This document shows, piece by piece, positions 2,603-60,088 of a DNA stretch of 64,000 nt. Position 1 is the stretch's first letter, and each line of letters starts with the position of its first letter. The stretch spans positions 1,302,001 through 1,366,000 of the forward strand of contig LR778114.1 of NCBI GenBank assembly GCA_902809825.1. The letters are read 5' to 3'. A program made the position numbers and the translations under genes. A model generated the notes under the pieces. The model searched no databases and was not told where the DNA came from. It saw only the letters and a program-made list of their open reading frames with translations. This DNA comes from Candidatus Hydrogenisulfobacillus filiaventi (GTDB lineage Bacteria; Bacillota; Sulfobacillia; Sulfobacillales; R501).

Positions 2603-3782
2603 GGGTCATCACCTCCGGCCGGGCCTTCAGGGCGGTCTGGTACACCGCTTCGGTGGCGGTGACCATCCCCTCCAGGGTGAAGGCGGCCTGCACCCGGGCC
2701 CGTGCCTCCCGGCCCAGGCGCGCCGCCTCCTCCGGCCGCGCCAGCACCCGGCGCATGGCCGCGGCCAGCTCCGCCACCGATCCCGGTGCCACCATCAGGC
2801 CGGAGCGGCCGTCCTCCACGATTTCCGGGAACGCCCCCAGGCGGGTGACCACCACCGGCCGCTGGCGGGCCATGGCCTCAATCACCACGATTCCGAACGG
2901 CTCCGGGTATTGGGACGGGTACACCACCAACGCGGCCTGGTCGTACATGGCCATGATCTCAGGCCAGGCGAAAGTGCGGAACCGGATGGCCGGCTCCAGG
3001 TCGGAGGCGGCGATGAGCTCGCGCATGGCGGCGATTTCGTGCCGCTGCAGGTTGCCCCAGTCCACTGTGCGGTCCACGCCCGCCAGCACCAGCACCGCGT
3101 CCGGCACCTCCGCCAGCACCTCGCGGAAGGCCAGCACCACCTCGCGCGAACCCTTGGCCAAGCTCATGCGCGCGGGATGGAAGATGACCGGCCGGCCCGC
3201 CAGGTCCGGATACACCGGCGGCCGCGGCGGCTCCTCCAGCCAGGCCGGCGCCAGGCCATGGTGCACCACATGCAGCCGGGCTGCCGGATACCCGTCCTGC
3301 AGGAGGGCCCGCCGGATATGCTCGCTCACCGCGATCACGGCGTCGTACCGGTCCCGGTAGCGGAGGAAGCTGCGGCCGGCGGCGTCCTCCCAGACGTTGT
3401 GGGCGGTGAGGACCAGGGCGGTCCGGGGGTGGGCCTCCCGCCAGGCCAGCACCGCCTCCAGGGGAACCGGGGTAAAATAATGCCAATTGTGCAGGTGGAC
3501 CACGTCGGGGGCGGCCGCATCCAGGAACTCGGCGATGGTCCGCTCCACCTGCTCGCGCTCGGCTTCAAAGTCGGCGGCGGTCAGGTGGTTCAGTTCCAGC
3601 CACTCGGTGCGGGTCACGGTCATGCCCTCAAAGGTTTCCACCGCGGGGGTGCCGGGCGGGCGCCCGCACAGCAGCGACACGGTGTGGCCCCGGCGGACCA
3701 GGGCCGGGCCCAGCAGGGCCAGGTGGGTTTCGACCCCGCCGATGGTGGGAGGAAACGCCCAGTGCAGATGGGCAATGTTCAT
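2580..3782 (-). CDS. GT4-family glycosyltransferase, 400 aa
   Basis: GT-B fold enzyme of family GT4. An N-terminal glycine-rich acceptor motif GGVETH (residues 15-20) and a C-terminal nucleotide-sugar motif EPFGIVVIE (E294 and E302, the E-x7-E pair) are visible, with an HNWHYF segment near 98-103. ATG at 3782 is chosen because AGGAAGGGAG stands about 10 nt upstream and the protein then begins in the usual beta strand; the in-frame extension to 3854 looks non-coding. It transfers a sugar from a nucleotide-activated donor, probably in the cytoplasm. Overlap with the downstream debranching enzyme gene suggests glucan or glycogen metabolism, but the exact donor and acceptor cannot be read from sequence. 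Confidence 0.85.
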   Translation of the reverse strand: MNIAHLHWAFPPTIGGVETHLALLGPALVRRGHTVSLLCGRPPGTPAVETFEGMTVTRTEWLELNHLTAADFEAEREQVERTIAEFLDAAAPDVVHLHNWHYFTPVPLEAVLAWREAHPRTALVLTAHNVWEDAAGRSFLRYRDRYDAVIAVSEHIRRALLQDGYPAARLHVVHHGLAPAWLEEPPRPPVYPDLAGRPVIFHPARMSLAKGSREVVLAFREVLAEVPDAVLVLAGVDRTVDWGNLQRHEIAAMRELIAASDLEPAIRFRTFAWPEIMAMYDQAALVVYPSQYPEPFGIVVIEAMARQRPVVVTRLGAFPEIVEDGRSGLMVAPGSVAELAAAMRRVLARPEEAARLGREARARVQAAFTLEGMVTATEAVYQTALKARPEVMTRDAPLAS

Positions 3783-4094
3783 CTGGTGACCGCTCCCTTC
3801 CTGCGCAGCTTTGCCAGCGACCCGGCCTGCGGTGGGGGAGCGGACGGGGCGCACCCGTAACGCCCTGGCCCTGTCGATCGGCTCGCGGGATCAGTCTACG
3901 AAACCCTCGAGGCCTTCATGTACCCTCCCCCCGCGCAGGCCCCGGTTCCGGTTTTACCAGAAAACCGGGCCGCGCTCCATCCCGCGCGCCGCCGGGTCGC
4001 ATGCGCTACCATGACAGGCAGGGGACGCCCCGGCGGGTATGTCCCCGCCATCCCGCAGGGCGGCCGCAGCCGGCCGCCGGAAAGGACCGTGACC
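3783..4094. other. Divergent intergenic region, 312 bp
   Basis: Lies between the minus-strand glycosyltransferase and the plus-strand acyltransferase. It must hold promoters for both directions, but I see no convincing -35/-10 pair. The longest AT-richer patch is near 3950-3965. No conserved RNA element or gene is recognisable. Confidence 0.4.
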
Positions 4095-4916
4095 ATGGCT
4101 GGCGACCTTCGCCCCCGTTACCGCTGGTACCAGCTGGATGCCTCCGCCGGGGCCGCAGCCCTGGCTCTCTCCCCGGTGCTGGATGAGGCGCTGGCCCCCA
4201 CCGTCACCCGGCCGGGGGCGCTGCCGCTGGTGCTGGTCCGCACCCAGTTCCCCCATGTCCTGCTGGGCCCCCGCGACCGCCGCCTGCCCCGGCTGGGGGA
4301 AGCCCTGGCCTGGCTGCGCCGGCAGGGCTACCCGGCCTATTTCCGGGCCGGCGGCGGCAGCGCCGTGCTGCTGGACGAAGGCTGCGTGAGCTTTGCGGTG
4401 GCCCGCCCCGCGCGCGACCTTACCCGCTGGCAGGCCAACTTTACTGAACTGGTGGAAGGGGTGGTGGCGGGGCTGGCGGAGCTCGGCATCCGGGCGCGGT
4501 TCGGGGCCGCTCCCGGGGCCTACTGCGAAGGGCCCTACGACCTGGTGGTGGACGGCCGCAAGCTGGCGGGGATTGCGCAGGCGGTCCGGCAGGGGTTTAC
4601 CCTGGTCTCCGGCATGGTCCTGGTGGACCAGGATCCGGCGCGCACTACCGCCCTGCTGCAGGAATTTTATGAGCGGGCCGGTGACGGGCGGCGCCTTGAC
4701 GCGGGCGCCGTCACCCATCTCAAGGCCCTCCGCCCGGAACGGCCCCCCGCCCCCGCGGAGGTGGCCGCGGCCCTGTACCGGGGCTACGCGACCGGCTTTG
4801 CCCTGGAGCCCGTCCCGTGGCAGGAGGCGGACTGGGACCGGGCCCGGCGCCTGCTGGCGGCGCGGGAGGCGGAGGTGTCCGCGCTGGCGGGGGATCAGGT
4901 GGCCAGGCCGGAATAG
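4095..4916 (+). CDS. Lipoyl/octanoyl-protein amidotransferase family (LipL/LipM/LplA-like), 273 aa
   Basis: Biotin/lipoate A/B ligase fold. The segment around residues 141-162 carries a cysteine (C144) followed by YDLVVDGRKLAGIAQ with K156, the arrangement seen in the cysteine-dependent octanoyltransferases LipM and LipL; an ordinary LplA ligase lacks that cysteine. The RAGGGSAVLLDEG stretch (84-96) is the acyl/nucleotide-binding loop. LipL moves octanoyl groups from GcvH to E2 subunits, which would suit the gcvH gene 16 kb away; LipM is the alternative and I cannot separate them without alignment. ATG at 4095 is preferred over the in-frame GTG at 4089 because AAAGGA is then 8 nt upstream. 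The 3' end overlaps the zinc-ribbon gene by 22 bp (convergent). Confidence 0.78.
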   Translation: MAGDLRPRYRWYQLDASAGAAALALSPVLDEALAPTVTRPGALPLVLVRTQFPHVLLGPRDRRLPRLGEALAWLRRQGYPAYFRAGGGSAVLLDEGCVSFAVARPARDLTRWQANFTELVEGVVAGLAELGIRARFGAAPGAYCEGPYDLVVDGRKLAGIAQAVRQGFTLVSGMVLVDQDPARTTALLQEFYERAGDGRRLDAGAVTHLKALRPERPPAPAEVAAALYRGYATGFALEPVPWQEADWDRARRLLAAREAEVSALAGDQVARPE

Positions 4917-27622: not shown

Positions 27623-28396
27623 GTGGCATCCCCGGTATTGGAAATCCAGGACCTCCATGTAGCCATTGGCGACAAGCCCATCCTGAAGGGCGTCACCCTG
27701 ACGGTGCGCGGCGGGGAGGTGCATGCCGTGATGGGCCCCAACGGCACCGGCAAGACCTCCCTGGCCCAGACCCTCATGGGCTGGCCCTCGTATACCGTCA
27801 CCGGCGGCCGGGTACTCCTGGACGGCCAGGATCTGCTGGCCATGCGCACCGACCAGCGGGCCCGCGCGGGGCTGTTCCTGGCCATGCAATACCCCAGCGA
27901 AATTTCGGGCGTCACCACCGCCAACTTCCTGCGCACCGCCTTAAATGCCCGCCGGGGCGAGGACAACCCCATCGGCCTCAAGGAGTTCCGTGATCAGCTG
28001 GACGCGGCCATGGACCAGCTGGAAATGAACCACCAGTTCGCCAACCGGTACCTGAACGAAGGGTTCTCGGGGGGCGAGAAGAAGCGCAATGAAATCCTGC
28101 AGATGCTGATGTTGAAGCCCCGCATCGCGGTGCTGGACGAAATCGACTCCGGCCTAGACATTGACGCGGTCAAGGTGGTGGCGGCCGGGGTGCAATCCCT
28201 GGTCGGCCCGGAATTCGGCGCCCTCATCATCACCCATTACCATCGCATCCTGGACTACATCCGGCCGGATTACGTGCACATCATGATGGACGGGCGGGTG
28301 GTCATGTCGGGCGGACCGGAGCTGGCCCACGAGCTGGAGGCCAAGGGCTACGACTGGGTCCGCAGCACCGTGCTTAACGCCGACCAGGCTCATTAA
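27623..28396 (+). CDS. sufC: Fe-S cluster assembly ATPase SufC, 257 aa
   Basis: ABC-type ATPase: Walker A GPNGTGKT, signature FSGGEKKR, Walker B IAVLDEIDSGLD and the H-loop histidine in IITHYHRIL. It forms the SufBCD scaffold on which Fe-S clusters are built. The GTG start at 27623 follows GAGGAG. First gene of the suf operon. Confidence 0.97.
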   Translation: MASPVLEIQDLHVAIGDKPILKGVTLTVRGGEVHAVMGPNGTGKTSLAQTLMGWPSYTVTGGRVLLDGQDLLAMRTDQRARAGLFLAMQYPSEISGVTTANFLRTALNARRGEDNPIGLKEFRDQLDAAMDQLEMNHQFANRYLNEGFSGGEKKRNEILQMLMLKPRIAVLDEIDSGLDIDAVKVVAAGVQSLVGPEFGALIITHYHRILDYIRPDYVHIMMDGRVVMSGGPELAHELEAKGYDWVRSTVLNADQAH

Positions 28397-28416
28397 TCCG
28401 CCGGGAGGAATCGGTC

Positions 28417-29697
28417 ATGCATGAGGGCATCGCCACCCTGGGCCCTGAAACCCTGGAAGCGGCCGTACGCAGCCGCTTTGCCGACGATCCCGACTGGCTG
28501 CGCGCACGCCGGCTGGAGCTGGCAGCGGCCGCACTGGAACGGGAGCTGCCGCAACGGCCCCATACCCCGCTGAAAAGCCGCCGGCTGGACCGCATCCCCG
28601 TCCTGGCCGCAGGGGACACCAGCCCCGCCCTGCCCGAGATCGGGGTGGAAGGGGCGGCCGGTCTGCTGGTGGTGGCCGACGGCCGGCCCCTGCGCAGCTG
28701 GCTCGACCCCGCCCTGGCCCCCCAAGGGGTGGTGTTCACCACCCTCAGCCAGGCCGCCCGCGAAGCGCCGGGCCTGGTCATGCGCTTCCTCGGCCGATCG
28801 GCGGATGATACCGCCGACCGACTGGCAGCCCTCAACGGCACCCTCTGGGACGGCGGCGCCTTCCTGTACGTTCCCCCGGGGGTGGAGATCCCCGGCCTGT
28901 TCGTGGTGTTGTACCTGACCGGGGACAGCACCCCCGGCAGCTTCCCCCGCACCCTGGCCGTGCTCGACCGCGGGGCCCGCGCGACCTTGGTGGAGCGCTT
29001 CCAGGGCGGCGGCAGCGGCCGCACCCTCTTCTCCGCCACCAGCGAGGTGTTCCTGGAGGAGGCGGCGGCGCTGACCATGGGTTCCCTCCAACAGCTGGCA
29101 GGCGGCGTGGAAGCCTTCCTGCGGCGGGCGGCCACCCTGAATGCCGACGCCACCCTCGACTGGTCGATCGGGGAATTCGGTGCCGGACTGGTGGTTACCG
29201 GGCATCAGGTGCGGCTTACCGCCCCCGGTGCCCGGGCCGCCACCACCACCGTGTTCTTCGGTTCCGGCCGTCAGCATCAGGATTACCGGGCTGAGGTCGA
29301 ACACCTGTCCCCCCACACCGCCAGCACCATGGTGGCACGGGGGGTGGTCAAGGATAAGGCCCGCACCGCCTTTTACGGCGTTTCCCACATCCATGCCGGG
29401 GCCAAGGGGGCGGATGCGCGGCAGAAGGAACAGATCCTGATGCTAAACGACGGCGCCCGCGCAGATGCGGTGCCGGCCCTGCTCATCGACGAGAACGACG
29501 TGTTCGCGGCCCATTCCGCCAGCGCCGGTCCTGTCGACCGGCAGGCCCTCTACTACCTGATGGCGCGCGGGCTGAGCGAGGAGCAGGCTGTCCGGCTGTA
29601 TGTGCACGGGTTCCTGGCCCCGGTGATCGACACCATCGGCGACCCCTGGCTGCGGGCCCGGGTGTGGGAGGAAGCGGAAGGGAAGATGCTGACGTGA
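28417..29697 (+). CDS. sufD: Fe-S cluster assembly protein SufD, 426 aa
   Basis: Beta-helix core protein paralogous to SufB; the C-terminal SAGPVDRQALYYLMARGLSE region and HSASAG motif are characteristic, and the lower similarity to SufB and position after sufC identify it as SufD. It stabilises the SufBC2D scaffold and assists iron entry. Ribosome site GGGAGGAA precedes ATG 28417. Confidence 0.95.
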   Translation: MHEGIATLGPETLEAAVRSRFADDPDWLRARRLELAAAALERELPQRPHTPLKSRRLDRIPVLAAGDTSPALPEIGVEGAAGLLVVADGRPLRSWLDPALAPQGVVFTTLSQAAREAPGLVMRFLGRSADDTADRLAALNGTLWDGGAFLYVPPGVEIPGLFVVLYLTGDSTPGSFPRTLAVLDRGARATLVERFQGGGSGRTLFSATSEVFLEEAAALTMGSLQQLAGGVEAFLRRAATLNADATLDWSIGEFGAGLVVTGHQVRLTAPGARAATTTVFFGSGRQHQDYRAEVEHLSPHTASTMVARGVVKDKARTAFYGVSHIHAGAKGADARQKEQILMLNDGARADAVPALLIDENDVFAAHSASAGPVDRQALYYLMARGLSEEQAVRLYVHGFLAPVIDTIGDPWLRARVWEEAEGKMLT

Positions 29698-30908
29698 ACC
29701 CGCTGGTGCCCCGCGAGGACTTCCCTATTCTCAGCCGCAGCGTGCATGGCCGCCGGCTGGTCTACCTGGATTCGGCCGCCACTGCCCAGAAGCCGGCCCC
29801 GGTGATCGCGGCGGTGGACCATTTCTACCGGTACACCAACGCCAACGTGCTACGCAGCGCCCACGCCCTGGCCGACGAGGCCACCGAGGCCTATGAGGCA
29901 GCCCGGGTCAAGGTAGCCCGTTTCATCGGGGCCGCCTCCCCGGCCGAGGTGGTGTTCACGCGGGGCACTACCGAATCCCTGAACGGCATCGCCCGCGGCT
30001 GGGGGGACAAGTTCGTCGGCCCCGGGGATGAGATTGTGCTCTCCCCCATGGAACATCACGCCAATCTGATCCCCTGGCAGCAGCTGGCGCGCCGCCGGGA
30101 GGCCCGCCTACGTTTCATTGAGCTGACCCCTGACGGCCGCATCACCCTGGAGGCGGCGCAGGCCGTCATCGGTCCCCGGACCCGGCTGGTGGCGCTCTCG
30201 GCGGTTTCCAACGTGCTGGGCACCATCAACCCCATCCCGGAGGTGGCCGCGCTGGCGCATCAGGTCGGTGCCGTCATGGTAGTGGACGGCGCCCAGTCGG
30301 TACCCCATGAGCCCACCGACGTGGCCGCCTTGGGAGCCGATTTCCTGGCCTTCTCCGGCCACAAGCTGGGCGGCCCTACCGGCATCGGCGTCCTCTGGGG
30401 CCGGGAGACGCTGCTGGACGCCATGGACCCCTTCCTGTTCGGGGGCGAGATGATCGCCTATGTCGACCGCGAGCATGCCACCTGGGCCGACCTGCCCCAC
30501 AAGTTCGAAGCCGGCACCCCCCATATCGCGGGGGCGGTAGGCCTGGGCGCCGCCTTGGACTACCTGCAAGCGGTCGGCATGGCCCGCGTGCGCGATCACG
30601 GGCGGGCCCTGGGGGAGGAGGCCTACCGGCGGCTGGCGGAGGCCGGGGTGCAGGTGTACGGCCCGGCGGCGCCCCGGGCCGCCCTGGTGGCCTTCAATCT
30701 GGGTCCAATCCACCCTCACGACGTGGCACAGGTGTTCGATGCCGAGGGCGTAGCCATCCGGGCCGGCCACCACTGCGCCCAGCCCCTCATGCAGTGGCTG
30801 GGAGTGGCGGCCACGGCACGGGCCAGTTTCTACATTTATAACGGCTCCGACGACATCGACGCCCTGCTGCACGCGGTTGAGGTGACAAAGAGGTACTTCC
30901 GCCGATGA
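29694..30908 (+). CDS. sufS: Type II cysteine desulfurase SufS, 404 aa
   Basis: PLP lysine K224 in SGHKLGGPTG and catalytic cysteine C361 in RAGHHCAQPL, which is the class II motif. It abstracts sulfur from cysteine as a persulfide and hands it to SufU. GTG 29694 overlaps the sufD TGA by 4 bp (GTGA), and its own stop overlaps sufU (ATGA). Confidence 0.96.
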   Translation: MNPLVPREDFPILSRSVHGRRLVYLDSAATAQKPAPVIAAVDHFYRYTNANVLRSAHALADEATEAYEAARVKVARFIGAASPAEVVFTRGTTESLNGIARGWGDKFVGPGDEIVLSPMEHHANLIPWQQLARRREARLRFIELTPDGRITLEAAQAVIGPRTRLVALSAVSNVLGTINPIPEVAALAHQVGAVMVVDGAQSVPHEPTDVAALGADFLAFSGHKLGGPTGIGVLWGRETLLDAMDPFLFGGEMIAYVDREHATWADLPHKFEAGTPHIAGAVGLGAALDYLQAVGMARVRDHGRALGEEAYRRLAEAGVQVYGPAAPRAALVAFNLGPIHPHDVAQVFDAEGVAIRAGHHCAQPLMQWLGVAATARASFYIYNGSDDIDALLHAVEVTKRYFRR

Positions 30909-31342
30909 GCCTGGACGAACTCTACCGGGAAATCATCCTGGATCACAATCAGCAGCCCCGTAACCGGGGCCGCCTGGAGCACCCCACCGCTACGGTGGGC
31001 CTGTTCAATCCGACCTGCGGCGACCAGATTCGGCTCGACCTGCTGGTGGAGGACGGCCGGGTCAAGGACATCCGGTTCGACGGACAGGGCTGCTCCATCA
31101 GCATGGCCTCCGCCTCTATGATGACGGAGGCGGTCAAGGGCAAGCCGGTTGAGGAGGCGCTAGCGCTGGCCCGCGGGTTTAAAGCCTTCCTGCGGGGGGA
31201 GCCCCCGGGGGTGGCCCTGGGGGATCTGGAGGTGCTGGGCGGGGTAACCCAGTTTCCCAGCCGGGTGAAATGTGCCACCCTGGCTCATAATGCCCTGGAG
31301 AAGGGCCTGACCGGCCAGCAGGGCGGTCTGGACGAGGAATAG
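30905..31342 (+). CDS. sufU: Sulfur transfer protein SufU, 145 aa
   Basis: IscU-like fold with zinc ligands C38, D40, C63 and C123 (NPTCGD, GQGCS, VKCATL) and the about 20-residue insertion between the second and third cysteines typical of SufU as opposed to IscU. It accepts persulfide from SufS by zinc-ligand exchange and delivers it to SufB. Confidence 0.95.
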
Positions 31343-31391
31343 GCCGCCGGAGGCAGCCCGCGACGGCGTGCGACTAAAGGAGGAACCTGCC

Positions 31392-32792
31392 ATGTCGGTC
31401 GACAATCGCGTCGTATCGGACGAGTACCGCTACGGCTTCAACGACGGCGACGTCAGCGTGCTGAAATTCAAGCGCGGCTTGTCCCGGGAAGTGGTGGAGG
31501 AGATCTCCCGCATTAAGCAGGAGCCGAAGTGGATGCTGGACTTCCGGCTACACGCGCTGGACGTCTTCCTCTCCAAGCCCATGCCGGCGTGGGGTGCCGA
31601 CCTCTCCGCCCTGGACTTCGACAACATCGTCTACTACGTGCGCCCGTCCGAACGCCAGGGCCGCACCTGGGATGAGGTGCCGCAGGCCATCAAGGACACC
31701 TTTGAGCGCCTCGGCATCCCGGAGGCGGAGCGGAAGTACCTGGCCGGGGTCTCGGCCCAGTATGAGTCGGAGGTCGTATACCACAGCATCCGCAAGGACC
31801 TGCAGGAGAAGGGCATCATCTTCTGCGACACCGACACGGCGGTCCGGGAATACCCCGAGCTGGTGCGGGAGTATTTCGGCACGGTGGTGCCGCCGGAGGA
31901 CAACAAGTTTGCCGCCCTCAACTCGGCGGTCTGGTCGGGGGGATCCTTCGTCTACATCCCCAAGGGGGCGCGGGCGGAAACCCCTTTGCAGGCCTATTTC
32001 CGCATCAACTCCCAGAACATGGGGCAGTTCGAGCGGACGCTCATCATCGCGGAGGAGGATTCCTTCGGGCACTACGTGGAGGGCTGCACCGCCCCCACCT
32101 ACAACTCGGAGTCGCTGCATTCGGCGGTGGTGGAGATTATCATTAAGGACAACGCCCGCATCCGGTACACCACGGTGCAGAACTGGGCCCCTAACGTCTA
32201 CAACCTGGTCACCAAGCGGGCGGTAGCCTACCGCAACGCCACCATGGAGTGGGTGGACGGCAATATCGGGTCCAAGGTGACCATGAAGTATCCGGCCGTG
32301 TACCTGCTGGGGGAAGGGGCCCGCGGGTCGGTGCTCTCCATTGCGGTGGGCGGCAAGGGGCAGCACCAGGATACGGGGGCCAAAATGGTGCATATCGCGC
32401 CCAACACCACCTCCACCATCGTGTCCAAGTCCATCAGCCAGCATGGGGGCAAGACCACCTACCGCGGGCTGGTGGAGTTCGGGCCCAATGCGGCCGGCGC
32501 CAAATCCTCGGTCAAGTGTGACACCCTCATCCTGGATCCGGAGTCGAGCTCGGACACCATCCCCACCAACGAGGTGGAAACCAGCCAGGGGCACATGGAA
32601 CACGAGGCCACCGTCACCAAGGTCAGCGAGGAGCAGCTCTTCTACCTGATGAGCCGCGGCCTCAGCGAAGAGGAAGCGACCCGCCTCATCGTCATGGGCT
32701 TCATCGAACCCTTCACCCGGGAGCTGCCGATGGAGTTCGCGGTGGGGATGAACCGGCTGATCAAGTTCGAGATGGAAGGGGCTATCGGCTGA
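31392..32792 (+). CDS. sufB: Fe-S cluster assembly scaffold SufB, 466 aa
   Basis: Highly conserved beta-helix protein: [13 protein letters not shown] near the N terminus, [37 protein letters not shown] and the C-terminal [15 protein letters not shown]. Cysteines in EGCTAP and VKCDTL are the candidate cluster and sulfur ligands. The strongest ribosome site in the operon (AAAGGAGGAA) precedes ATG 31392. Confidence 0.97.
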
Positions 32793-38605: not shown

Positions 38606-41119
38606 ATGGCCGGCAGCGCATACCTTGACAACGCCGCCACCACCCGGGTGCGCCCTGAGGTGACGGCGGTCATGCGGGAAGCTCTGGAAGACACTTACGG
38701 CAACCCTTCCTCCGTCCACCAGGCGGGACGGGCCGCCCGTCATCTGCTGGAGCGGGCGCGGGAAACGCTGGCGTCGGCCATCGCCGTGCCGCCCGCCTGT
38801 CTCCTCTTCACCTCCGGGGGCACCGAGGCCAACAACCTGGCCCTGAAGGGGGCGATGGCCGCCTACGGCCGCGAAGGGCGCCACCTGGTGACCACCGCCA
38901 TCGAGCACGCCTCCGTCCTGGACACCGCTCGCGCCCTGGAACGGGCCGGCTATACCCTCACCATCGTGGAGCCCGACCGCACCGGACGCATCGACCCCGA
39001 CCGGGTGGCGGCAGCGGTGCGGCCGGACACGGTGCTGGTGAGTGTGATGCTGGTAAACAATGAGATTGGCACTGTGGAGCCGCTCAGCGACATCGTCCGG
39101 GCCGTCCGGGCCGTGCGGCCCCGGCCGCCGCTGGTGCACATGGACGCCGTGCAGGCCCTGGGCAAGATCCCGGTCACCCCCCGTCTCTGGGGTGTGGACC
39201 TGGCCTCCTTCAGCGCCCACAAGATTCACGGCCCTAAAGGCACGGGCGCGCTCTATGTCCGGGAAGGGGTCCGGCTGGTGCCCCTCCTCACCGGCGGGGG
39301 GCAGGAGCGCAACCTGCGCTCCGGGACCGAGAACGTGGCCGGCATCGCCGGCTTCGCCGAAGCCGCCCGCCTGCTGCTGGCGGAGCAGCCGGCCCTGCGG
39401 GAGCGCTGGGCCGCCTTCAAGCAGCGCATCCTGGACGGTCTGACCCCGCGCCTCCCGGGCCTGGCCGTCAACGGACCTGCCCCCGCGGAGGCGGCGCCCC
39501 ACATCCTCAACCTGTCCGTCCCCGGCGTCCGCGGGGAGACCCTGGTCCATGCCCTGGCCGCGCGCGGCGTGTATGTCTCCACCGCCTCCGCCTGCTCCTC
39601 GCACCATAGCGGTCCCAGCCATGTGCTCACCGCCCTGCATCTGCCGGCAGACCGGCTAGAGGGCGCCATCCGCATCTCCTTTTCGCGGGAGACCACAGAG
39701 GACGACGTGGACCGCCTGATCGCAGCCGTGCCCGAGGCCGTAGCGGAAATCCGGCGGCCGGGGCCCGTGCGGCTGCCGGACCCGCCCCGGTCCCTGGCCG
39801 TGGGGCCGGCCGCGGAGCTGCCCGCGGGCGGTGCGGCGGAGGCATCCCGCCCGGCCGTGGCCGCTGCGCCGGCGGTCCCGTCCCCGGGACCGGCAGAGGA
39901 GGCGCAACCGGTGGTGCTGGTGCGCTACGGCGAGATCGGGCTCAAGGGGGAGAACCGCCGGCACTTCGAACACCTGCTCCTGACCCGTATCCGGCATGCG
40001 CTGGAGCCCTGGCCGGACGCGGCGGTGCATTGGAGCGGCGGACGCATCTGGGTGGAGCCCGGCACCGGCGGCCCGCCGGTGCTGGAAGCGCTGCGGCGGG
40101 TGTTCGGCACGGTGGCCCTCTCCCCGGGGGAGCGGGTGCCGCTGGACCTCGACGCCATGACCCGGGCCGGCATCCGTCTCCTGGGCGCCGCGGTGCGGGA
40201 GGACGGCGCTGCCAGTTTCAAGGTGGATACCCGCCGGCCCAACAAACGGTTCCCGCTCAATTCCCTGGAGGTCAACCGGGAACTGGGGCACCGCCTGCAT
40301 CAGGCCTTTCCCGCCCTCAGGGTCGATGTCCACCAGCCCGAGGTGGAGGTCACCGTAGAGGTGCGTGACGACGCGGCCTACCTGTATGCCCGTTCCCTGC
40401 CGGCCGTAGGCGGCCTGCCGGCCGGCATGAGCGGACGCGCCTGCGCGCTGCTCTCCGGCGGGATCGACAGCCCGGTGGCGGCCTGGATGATGATGAAGCG
40501 GGGGATGACCATCATCCCGGTCTACTTCCACAGCTATCCCTTCACCGGCGACCAGACCAAGGATAAGGTGGTCGAGCTGACCCGCATCCTGGCCGGTTGG
40601 GCAGGAGGACGGATGCGCCTATGGGTGGTGCACTTCACCGAGGTCCAGAAGGCCATCTATGCGGATGCTCCGGCCCGCTATGGGGTGGCCATCATGCGGC
40701 GCATGATGCTGCGGCTGGCGGAACGAATCGCCGGCCGCGAACGGGCCACCGCCCTGGTCACCGGCGAGAGCCTGGGCCAGGTGGCAAGCCAGACGGCGGA
40801 GAACATCCGCTCCATCGCCGCCGTCACCCGCCTGCCCGTTCTGCGGCCCCTCATCGGCCTGGACAAGACCGAAATCATGGCCAAGGCCCAGGAAATCGGG
40901 ACCTACCCGGTCTCCATCCTGCCCTATGAAGACTGCTGCACGCTGTTCATCCCCAAACACCCCGCCACCCGCAGCCGCCCGGAGGACCTGGAGCGGCTGG
41001 AACAGGGCCGGGACTGGGAACCCCTGCTGCAGGAGGCCCTGGGCCGCAGCGAGGTCCTGACGGTGGAGGCGGTGCCGGCGCCCGCTCCCCCCGTCGTGGC
41101 CCCCGTCAGCGGTCAATAA
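38606..41119 (+). CDS. Cysteine desulfurase-ThiI fusion: NifS/IscS-type desulfurase joined to tRNA 4-thiouridine sulfurtransferase, 837 aa
   Basis: Residues 1-383 form a complete class I (IscS/NifS-type) PLP cysteine desulfurase, with PLP lysine K206 (SAHKIHGPKG) and persulfide cysteine C330 (STASACSS). Residues 384-434 are an Ala/Pro/Gly-rich linker. Residues 435-820 form ThiI: ferredoxin-like plus THUMP domain from VVLVRYGEIGLKGENRRHFE, PP-loop SGGIDS (617-622), the GESLGQVASQT motif, and C777/C778 in YEDCCTLFIPKHP. No rhodanese domain follows. The frame is open throughout. The enzyme should take sulfur from cysteine and thiolate U8 of tRNAs; the desulfurase partner is normally a separate protein. 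ATG 38606 follows GGGAGGGAAGG. Its end overlaps the convergent lipoprotein gene by 7 bp. Confidence 0.93.
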   Translation: MAGSAYLDNAATTRVRPEVTAVMREALEDTYGNPSSVHQAGRAARHLLERARETLASAIAVPPACLLFTSGGTEANNLALKGAMAAYGREGRHLVTTAIEHASVLDTARALERAGYTLTIVEPDRTGRIDPDRVAAAVRPDTVLVSVMLVNNEIGTVEPLSDIVRAVRAVRPRPPLVHMDAVQALGKIPVTPRLWGVDLASFSAHKIHGPKGTGALYVREGVRLVPLLTGGGQERNLRSGTENVAGIAGFAEAARLLLAEQPALRERWAAFKQRILDGLTPRLPGLAVNGPAPAEAAPHILNLSVPGVRGETLVHALAARGVYVSTASACSSHHSGPSHVLTALHLPADRLEGAIRISFSRETTEDDVDRLIAAVPEAVAEIRRPGPVRLPDPPRSLAVGPAAELPAGGAAEASRPAVAAAPAVPSPGPAEEAQPVVLVRYGEIGLKGENRRHFEHLLLTRIRHALEPWPDAAVHWSGGRIWVEPGTGGPPVLEALRRVFGTVALSPGERVPLDLDAMTRAGIRLLGAAVREDGAASFKVDTRRPNKRFPLNSLEVNRELGHRLHQAFPALRVDVHQPEVEVTVEVRDDAAYLYARSLPAVGGLPAGMSGRACALLSGGIDSPVAAWMMMKRGMTIIPVYFHSYPFTGDQTKDKVVELTRILAGWAGGRMRLWVVHFTEVQKAIYADAPARYGVAIMRRMMLRLAERIAGRERATALVTGESLGQVASQTAENIRSIAAVTRLPVLRPLIGLDKTEIMAKAQEIGTYPVSILPYEDCCTLFIPKHPATRSRPEDLERLEQGRDWEPLLQEALGRSEVLTVEAVPAPAPPVVAPVSGQ

Positions 41120-41628
41120 CCGCTGCCCCCGCCGGCGCCCCCCGCCGGCGGGCCGGCGGGGACAGCCGCCTTCAGGCCCGGCACCGCCACGAACCATTCG
41201 TGGAACAACCCCTCCCCGTGGGCCTGACCGGGCGCCAGGTCGAGGCTGTACGTGTAGAGGGGGTGGCCGTTGTAGGTCACCTGCTCCCCGTTGCCGTCGG
41301 CCACTATCTTAAAGCGGCCGGGCACCCCGGATGGAATCTGGACGGGCTCAGTGGGGCTCACGGCCCGCAGCGCGGGCCAGATCTGCTGGCAGCTGCCGGT
41401 ACAGGCCGACCGCTGCGGCTGGTCCAGGGTGAAGTAGTAGAGGGTGTGCCCCGCGTCGTTGGTGAGGACGGTTTCCTCCCGGCCCGCCACCAGGGCCCGC
41501 CCCACCTTAATCACCACCGCCTTCGCCCTGGACGGCGCGGCGGCCGGCCGGGCGGCGACCCCGCAGCCGCTGAGCAGGACGCCGGCCGCCGCGGCGGCGG
41601 CGGCCTGGCGCCAACCGGACCCCTTCAT
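41113..41628 (-). CDS. Lipoprotein with PF03640 secreted-repeat domain, 171 aa
   Basis: Type II signal peptide with lipobox LLSGC (mature Cys near residue 20), then two PF03640-like units: VLTNDAGHTLYYFTLDQ...CTGSCQQIWPAL and VTYNGHPLYTYSLDLAPGQAHGEG. Function of the family is unknown; such proteins are exported and often sit near redox genes. ATG 41628 has AAGGAGG upstream. The C-terminal tail is Gly-rich. Confidence 0.85.
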   Translation of the reverse strand: MKGSGWRQAAAAAAAGVLLSGCGVAARPAAAPSRAKAVVIKVGRALVAGREETVLTNDAGHTLYYFTLDQPQRSACTGSCQQIWPALRAVSPTEPVQIPSGVPGRFKIVADGNGEQVTYNGHPLYTYSLDLAPGQAHGEGLFHEWFVAVPGLKAAVPAGPPAGGAGGGSGY

Positions 41629-41683
41629 GGGCCTGGCCTCCTTCCTGCGCGCCGGCACCGGCGCGCTCCGCTGTCCGTCCCGG

Positions 41684-42448
41684 TTACGCGCCGGAGAGCC
41701 GGCCGGATTCATCTCCGGCCGGCTCCACCCGGTACAGCGCCGGCGGCTCCGCCGCCCGGAGACCGCCGCCCAGGCGGGCACAGCCGCCGGCAACCGGGCA
41801 CAGCAGGCAGGCCGGTTTGCGGGCAGTGCAGATGAGGGCCCCCAGGTCCATGAGGGCCTGATTGAACTGGTCCGCCCCCTCCTCGGGCAGCACGGCCTCG
41901 GCCAGGGCCCATAGATGGTGGCGGCGCTCGGCCCCGCGCCCGCCGGGTCCCAACGCCGGGACCTCGAAGTACCGCCCCAGCACCCGCTCCACGTTGGTAT
42001 CCAGGATGGGCGACCGGAGCCCGAAGGCGAAGGAGCGCACGGCCCCGGCCGTATAGCGGCCCACGCCCGGCAGCGCCAGCAGCTCCTCCCAGCTGTCGGG
42101 GATGCGGCCCCCGTGGCGCGCCGTCACCGCCCGGGCGATTTCCCACAGCCAGCGGCCCCGGACCTTATAGCCCAGGGGGTCGGTGATGGCTTTGACCTCC
42201 GCCAGCGGGGCCCCGGCCAAGGCGTCGAGAGTGGGAAAACGGGCCAGGAAGGCCTCATAAACCGGAATGACGGTGCGGACCTGGGTCTGATGCAGCAGGA
42301 CCTCGGACACCAGGATGGCGTAGGGGTCCCGGGTGCGCCGCCAGGGCAGGTCGCGTCCGTGACGCCGGTACCAGGCCGCCAGCTCGCGTCGGAACAGGGT
42401 GAGCGGCCCCGGCGCCACCACCGCCCGGTATTTGAACAGCCGCTTCAC
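41684..42448 (-). CDS. mutY: A/G-specific adenine glycosylase MutY-like, short form, 254 aa
   Basis: HhH-GPD glycosylase: catalytic E49 (SEVLLHQTQV), helix-hairpin-helix LPGVGRYTAGAV, catalytic D150 (ILDTNVERVLGRY) and a [4Fe-4S] loop C207-x6-C214-x2-C217-x5-C223. It removes adenine paired with 8-oxoguanine. Only about 30 residues follow the Fe-S loop, so the NUDIX-like C-terminal domain that reads 8-oxoG is missing; residue 53 is His where Gln is usual. The GTG start at 42448 overlaps the upstream membrane-protein stop (GTGA), and there is no own ribosome site. Confidence 0.85.
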   Translation of the reverse strand: MKRLFKYRAVVAPGPLTLFRRELAAWYRRHGRDLPWRRTRDPYAILVSEVLLHQTQVRTVIPVYEAFLARFPTLDALAGAPLAEVKAITDPLGYKVRGRWLWEIARAVTARHGGRIPDSWEELLALPGVGRYTAGAVRSFAFGLRSPILDTNVERVLGRYFEVPALGPGGRGAERRHHLWALAEAVLPEEGADQFNQALMDLGALICTARKPACLLCPVAGGCARLGGGLRAAEPPALYRVEPAGDESGRLSGA

Positions 42449-53017: not shown

Positions 53018-54088
53018 TCAATCCTCCGCCTGCAGGCGGCCGCCGGCCAGGAGCCGTCCCGCGGCGTCGTACCAGACCGCCACCTGCCCCGGGGCGACTG
53101 CCCACTGCGGCCGCGCAAATTCGATCCGGGCCCGGGACGGATCAGCCGGATCCGGGATCCAAACCGCGGGCACCGGCTCCATGTTGTAGCGTACCTTCAC
53201 CCAGCCCCGGCGCGGTTCCGGAAACGGATTTCCCAAGGGGTAGTGGACCGCCTCTACGACCGCCCGGCGGCGCTCCGCCTCCCGGCGGCGGCCGATGATC
53301 ACGCGGTTGCGGGCGGCGTCCAGTCCGACCACGTACCGGGGCTCGTCCGCAGTGATCCCCAGGCCCCGCCGCTGTCCCACCGTGAAGAAGGCCACCCCGG
53401 GATGCTGCCCCACCACCCGCCCCGCCGTGTCCACCATCTCCCCCGGGCGGGCGGCATCGGGCCGGTGGCGGCGGAGATAGGCGCGATAGTCGTTGCCGGG
53501 TACAAAGCAGAGCTCCTGGCTCTCGGCCTTGTCGGCCGTCGGGAGCCCCCGCCGGCGGACGTAGTCCCGTACCGCCGGCTTGAGCCACCCGCCGAGCGGG
53601 AACCGGACATGCGCCAGGTCCTCCTGGCCCAGGGTGTAGAGCAGGTAGCTCTGGTCCTTGGCGGTGTCCCGCGCCCGGGCCAGCACCCACCGGTCGGCCC
53701 CGAAGGGCTGCCGGCGCACGTAATGACCCGTCGCCACCAAGTCTGCCCCCTGCGCCGCCGCCCATTCCCACAGGGCCCCGAATTTGATGGCCCGGTTGCA
53801 GAGGGCACAGGGATTCGGGGTACGGCCGCCCAAATAGGCGGCCTCAAAGGGTTCGATCACAGCCTCCCGGAAGCGGCGGCGGACATCCACCACCGTATGA
53901 GGAATGCCCAGGGCTTTGGCCACTCGTTTGGCATCCGCCACCGCCCCCAGGGAGCAGCAGCCGTTATCGGCCCCGGGGGGCAGCTGCAGGAGGGTCACCC
54001 CCAGCACGGTGTGGCCCTGCTCCACAAGTAAAGCGGCGGCCGCCGAGGAGTCGACGCCGCCGCTCATGCCCACCACCACCACGGCCAC
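53018..54088 (-). CDS. mnmA: tRNA-specific 2-thiouridylase MnmA, 356 aa
   Basis: PP-loop GMSGGVDSS at the N terminus; the catalytic cysteine pair in TPNPCALCN and [11 protein letters not shown]/tRNA motif ATGHYVR. It forms 2-thiouridine at U34 of Lys, Glu and Gln tRNAs using persulfide from a cysteine desulfurase. GTG 54088 has GGGAGGG upstream and lies 2 bp after the Rrf2 stop. In most Firmicutes a desulfurase gene stands between the regulator and mnmA; here it is missing. Confidence 0.96.
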
Positions 54089-59881: not shown

Positions 59882-60088
59882 CCTGAATACCCCGCCTATG
59901 CCGTGTCACCGAAGTTTTGAACCTGCGCGCTCGCAGGTGGGCGCCTCCGGCCGGCTTTCGCAGTCCCCTGGCGTTCTTGCGAACGGGGGCAGGACGGCCA
60001 CCGTCCTGGATCAGGCTCCCTATGTTTTGGTGTTGGCTCAAAACATATCGGACCGGATCACGCGCATCGCAGGGCTTCCGTCCGTCGC
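59854..60088 (-). ncRNA. ssrS: Candidate 6S RNA
   Basis: A transcript bounded by a consensus promoter (60095-60123) and a terminator (59854-59881), without a coding frame. It has a rod-like design: an inner closing stem ATGCgCGTG (60059-60067) with CACGGCAT (59898-59905), and an 8-bp hairpin ATGTTTTG/CAAAACAT around AGCCAACAC, followed by AGGGAGCC. The UUUUGAGCCAACA...AGGGAGCC block is what I remember from Firmicutes 6S RNAs. Synteny agrees: B. subtilis bsrA lies between aspS and rarA. 6S RNA binds sigma-A RNA polymerase and tunes it in stationary phase. Length (about 235 nt with terminator) is somewhat long. Confidence 0.75.

Follow-up and report, generated by a model that had tools for sequence, protein, structure and literature searches.

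The closest described counterparts of the locus reported here are pairs of separate proteins. In B. subtilis, the cysteine desulfurase NifZ and a ThiI that lacks a rhodanese domain are together enough for the formation of 4-thiouridine (s4U), and the desulfurase gene lies directly upstream of thiI (PMC5372745); the same paper leaves the persulfide route to rhodanese-less ThiI (the accepting cysteine, and transfer within or between subunits) to await experiment. The chemistry is the same in E. coli, where the persulfide of IscS is passed to ThiI and U8 is adenylated, but there IscS is a separate housekeeping enzyme with many partners and ThiI has a C-terminal rhodanese domain. Desulfurases and ThiI are both dimers in known structures. 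Fusions of a desulfurase to a sulfur acceptor or an end-use domain have been described, such as the CD-rhodanese of Pseudorhodoferax sp. (WP_056898193.1), which was shown to be bifunctional, and plant ABA3, in which a NifS-like domain is joined to a MOSC domain (PMC8931425). No report of a desulfurase-ThiI fusion was found in the open-access literature searched.

In "Candidatus Hydrogenisulfobacillus filiaventi" R50, a hydrogen-oxidising bacterium, the two enzymes are encoded in one frame. The gene lies in the window (the whole 64,000 nt stretch of DNA that was analysed), which is part of a genome of 2,570,337 bp (PMC10080006). A single open frame of 837 codons extends from 38606 to 41119 (+), beginning with an ATG that has GGGGAGGG upstream and ending with a TAA stop; the uninterrupted frame and its two complete enzymes are exactly as the first-pass annotation had described them, as ORF, Pfam and NCBIfam evidence confirms. 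Each half has its full length and all its catalytic residues, so the finding is not due to chance. The gene stands alone, with a sigma factor gene upstream on the other strand. The last 7 bases of the ORF (41113-41119) are shared with a convergent Lipoprotein_15 gene (41113-41793, -). The enzymes, their order, the direct upstream position of the desulfurase and the absence of a rhodanese domain are all shared with B. subtilis, but a single frame replaces the two separate products of that system. In the Pseudorhodoferax protein the acceptor is a rhodanese, whereas in R50 it is the tRNA-modifying enzyme itself, and ABA3 differs in being eukaryotic and in serving molybdenum cofactor sulfuration. 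The R50 gene thus joins two well-known functional partners in a new domain arrangement, and desulfurase-acceptor fusions as such are already known.

The presence of a complete NifS/IscS-type desulfurase (K206, C330), a long Ala/Pro linker and a complete ThiI (THUMP, SGGIDS, C777/C778) without a rhodanese domain had been proposed from the letters, and all of these features were recovered by profile searches and alignment. The desulfurase domain (aa 1-383; 38606..39754, +) was delimited by Pfam, alignment and AlphaFold2/Foldseek. Aminotran_5 matched residues 6-371 (E 1.8e-76), and the PLP lysine (K206), the persulfide cysteine (C330) and H101 are all conserved in a 12-row alignment; the invariant K206 and C330 and the class V aminotransferase fold place the domain in class I of the NifS/IscS desulfurases. 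None of the NCBIfam cut-offs for a named equivalog (NifS, IscS, DndA) was reached by this half, the best model being TIGR03402 (385 bits vs a cut-off of 530.75), and judged by its sequence it is NifS-type, of an unnamed subfamily. Foldseek matched it to NifS/IscS/Nfs1 structures, including 1ecx and 8rme, with TMt values of about 0.9 or more.

The ThiI domain (NFLD, THUMP and PP-loop; aa 436-825; 39911..41080, +) was placed by the same means together with NCBIfam. Pfam matches were to ThiI_fer (PF22025, 436-506), THUMP (PF02926, 530-594) and ThiI (PF02568, 607-800, E 2.6e-67), and TIGR00342 matched residues 437-800 with 345.9 bits, above its curated cut-off of 264.5, which identifies the half as ThiI. 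The PP-loop motif SGGIDSP occupies residues 617-623, and SGG, DSP and the pair C777/C778 are invariant in the 12-row alignment. In T. maritima ThiI, the only cysteine at this site aligns with C778, and the C777/C778 site is presumably the equivalent of E. coli C344. The structures found by Foldseek for this half include B. anthracis ThiI (2c5s) and T. maritima ThiI (4kr7). A Pfam scan detected no rhodanese domain in the fused protein, the chain ending 37 residues past the Pfam ThiI domain, and the protein is therefore not an E. coli-type ThiI, in which a C-terminal rhodanese carries the persulfide cysteine C456. The idea that the fusion replaces a rhodanese domain does not hold, as the unfused ThiI of B. 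subtilis has none (PMC5372745), and neither do the unfused thiI genes in relatives of R50, which are about 400 codons long. Loss of the rhodanese domain is thus older than the fusion.

The linker between the enzymes (aa 384-435; 39755..39910, +), delimited by composition, coding score and AlphaFold2, is rich in Ala, Pro and Gly. Its composition had been called normal, but the 156 nt are 86% GC, compared to about 70% for the genome. Stop triplets are absent from all three of its forward frames; at 86% GC, the probability of 52 codons without a stop is about 0.78, so an open linker is to be expected and its openness is by itself no proof of translation. The codon likelihood of frame 0 is 17.5 log units above that of the other frames, a difference equalled by 0.5% of shuffles (p ~0.005), and the signal comes mainly from the first half (p 0.007), the second half being weakly coding-like (p 0.08). 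A linker that is coding-like in the fused frame suggests that the fusion is probably real. AlphaFold2 (12 rows) modeled the fused protein with a mean pLDDT of 82 and a pTM of 0.50, in which both enzymes are confident and residues 384-430 have a pLDDT of about 30, so that neither the structure of the linker nor the orientation of the domains is defined. The linker is predicted to be disordered.

Whole-protein and ThiI-family searches covered 154 class genomes and a phylum sample of 398, and DNA was then read in six frames. In every one of the other class genomes read directly (65/65), the desulfurase gene and thiI are separate neighbors with the same orientation; none is fused, the two frames being different in 51 and the same in 14, where one or more in-frame stops intervene. 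These 14 include four of the five closest relatives of R50. In the remaining class genomes that exceeded the ThiI cut-off, the frame of ThiI is too short to hold a fusion, and of ten relatives given by a scan of named genomes, none has desulfurase and ThiI in one frame. The adjacent, separate pair is also found in the sampled phylum, in which the sole full-length match without a stop is that of R50. Among the class and phylum genomes searched, R50 is the only fused case found, and since no second species has the fusion, the fused state itself is unsupported by conservation. Several candidates were rejected along the way. Thirteen further phylum candidates with long reported frames proved to have separate genes when read directly, apparent open frames of about 800 aa (in G001, G013, G018, G074, G164, G356, G380 and others) resolved into in-frame neighbors with a stop on six-frame reading, and the long ThiI frames of seven high-GC genomes (G033, G034, G035, G149, G031, G072 and G133) have the desulfurase in a different frame.

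The closest relatives (family f41, genomes G135-G139) are 60–67% identical to R50 in each half and 62–63% over the pair. R50 is placed beside f41 both by a desulfurase tree (support 100/99) and by a ThiI tree made by a quick method (support 100), indicating that the two halves were inherited together. No ThiI above the family cut-off is present in the order-mates of R50 (families f2 and f3, genomes G084-G124), so the R50 pair was either retained or acquired by horizontal gain. In G135, the first ~95 residues of ThiI and the remainder match separately, about 170 nt apart, following a long spacer (L124, ~3194-4838); by its sequence, this gene may possibly have suffered an insertion or a frameshift.

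On this evidence, it is considered likely that the R50 gene encodes a bifunctional s4U8 tRNA synthase that arose by stop loss between the neighboring genes of an ordinary NifZ-ThiI pair, as known from Gram-positive bacteria. In G136, G137 and G139, the desulfurase stop is followed by a spacer of 42–81 nt in the same frame and then by a TTG start of thiI with a GGAGG-type site before it; from such in-frame neighbors, the fusion would have formed by loss of the stop and later change of the spacer. The desulfurase half would take sulfur from L-cysteine, using PLP on K206, to form a persulfide on C330, while the NFLD and THUMP domains of the ThiI half would bind tRNA and its PP-loop adenylate U8. 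C777/C778 would then accept the persulfide, leading to 4-thiouridine at U8. The flexible linker of about 50 residues would tether the halves, giving C330 and the accepting cysteine of ThiI a high local concentration at which to meet, either within or across the expected dimer. We infer the activity, the sulfur transfer and the dual products of the fused gene (see below). The fusion would be natural evidence that a NifZ-type desulfurase works as a single machine with a rhodanese-less ThiI, and a single-chain protein would let the persulfide route to such a ThiI be assayed. It would also illustrate how same-frame operon neighbors can become fused by stop loss, and it reveals no new pathway.

Two other accounts of the locus concern the frame itself and its products. 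An assembly or sequencing error would mean that the true R50 sequence holds two ordinary neighboring genes, parted by a stop or frameshift; in favor of this, all relatives have separate genes. The first-pass annotation had held that a single-base error could not explain the fusion, and this was too strong: close relatives keep the two genes in a common frame, parted by one stop and a spacer of 42–81 nt, so that a single stop loss, real or erroneous, would join them, and six linker codons of R50 are one substitution away from a stop. Moreover, the assembly was made by Canu from Nanopore reads, and a linker of 86% GC is where assembly errors are likeliest; however, it was polished with Racon and Pilon, and Illumina reads had also been taken (PMC10080006). 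The codons that align with the stop region of the relatives are GAC and CCG (392-393), neither of which is one substitution from a stop, and frame 0 is favored across the whole linker as well as its first half, a pattern that an indel inside would break. An error is accordingly judged quite improbable. A better prospect, though still a doubtful one, is that the genes are fused in the DNA while the proteins are mainly separate, initiation at an internal start giving free ThiI and the long product being a minor or neutral by-product. Comparison with the relatives revealed a putative retained ribosome-binding site, AGAGGAGG (39895..39902, +), at the place of the thiI Shine-Dalgarno (SD) sequence of f41, and an in-frame GTG (39911..39913, +) lies exactly at ThiI residue 1 (aa 436), where translation of free ThiI (about 402 aa) could start. 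The spacing between the two is 8 nt. Across 11 genes of the window, AGGAGG at a distance of 4–10 nt precedes just 2 of the 312 in-frame start codons that are internal. A strong SD retained at this position suggests that some free ThiI may be made beside the fused protein, so that the direct channelling proposed in the first-pass annotation may not be obligate, and, given an internal start, the fused form may not be the sole, or not the main, form; a singleton fusion is also what a neutral stop loss would give. On the other hand, GAGGAGG may reflect merely a Glu-Glu codon pair, the linker is coding-like, and with no stop in any of its forward frames, all ribosomes that leave the desulfurase enter the ThiI region.

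A further alternative, which is compatible with a bifunctional s4U8 synthase and comes nearer to it in probability than the preceding ones without reaching even chances, is that the fused desulfurase is a general NifS-type donor to MnmA and others, with no dedicated channel to ThiI. At all eight loci checked in relatives (8/8), mnmA is directly preceded by a second NifS-type desulfurase gene, the YrvO-MnmA arrangement. By genome comparison, the R50 gene for MnmA (s2U34 synthase; 53018..54088, -) has no adjoining desulfurase gene. Its neighbors are a transporter-like gene on one side and succinate dehydrogenase-like genes on the other. The MnmA-paired second desulfurase is absent from the R50 genome, where the only clear desulfurases found are the fusion and SufS, suggesting that the fused enzyme may have clients other than ThiI. 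SufS (29664 or 29700-30908, +) belongs to a suf operon, sufC-D-S-U-B (27623..32792, +), the names of which were read from the sequences, with only SufS being matched to a family. It could itself supply MnmA, just as in the Plasmodium apicoplast one desulfurase serves tRNA modification as well as Fe-S assembly (PMC10219651). MnmA of R50 is most likely fed by either SufS or the fused protein, and in the second case the fusion would be no channel dedicated to ThiI. That the protein is a self-contained s4U synthase, whose sulfur passes chiefly inside one polypeptide or dimer, and that it also supplies MnmA, so serving both tRNA thiolation routes, is considered unlikely. The same window also carries a 6S RNA (RF00013) at 59885-60078 (-), detected with 73 bits.
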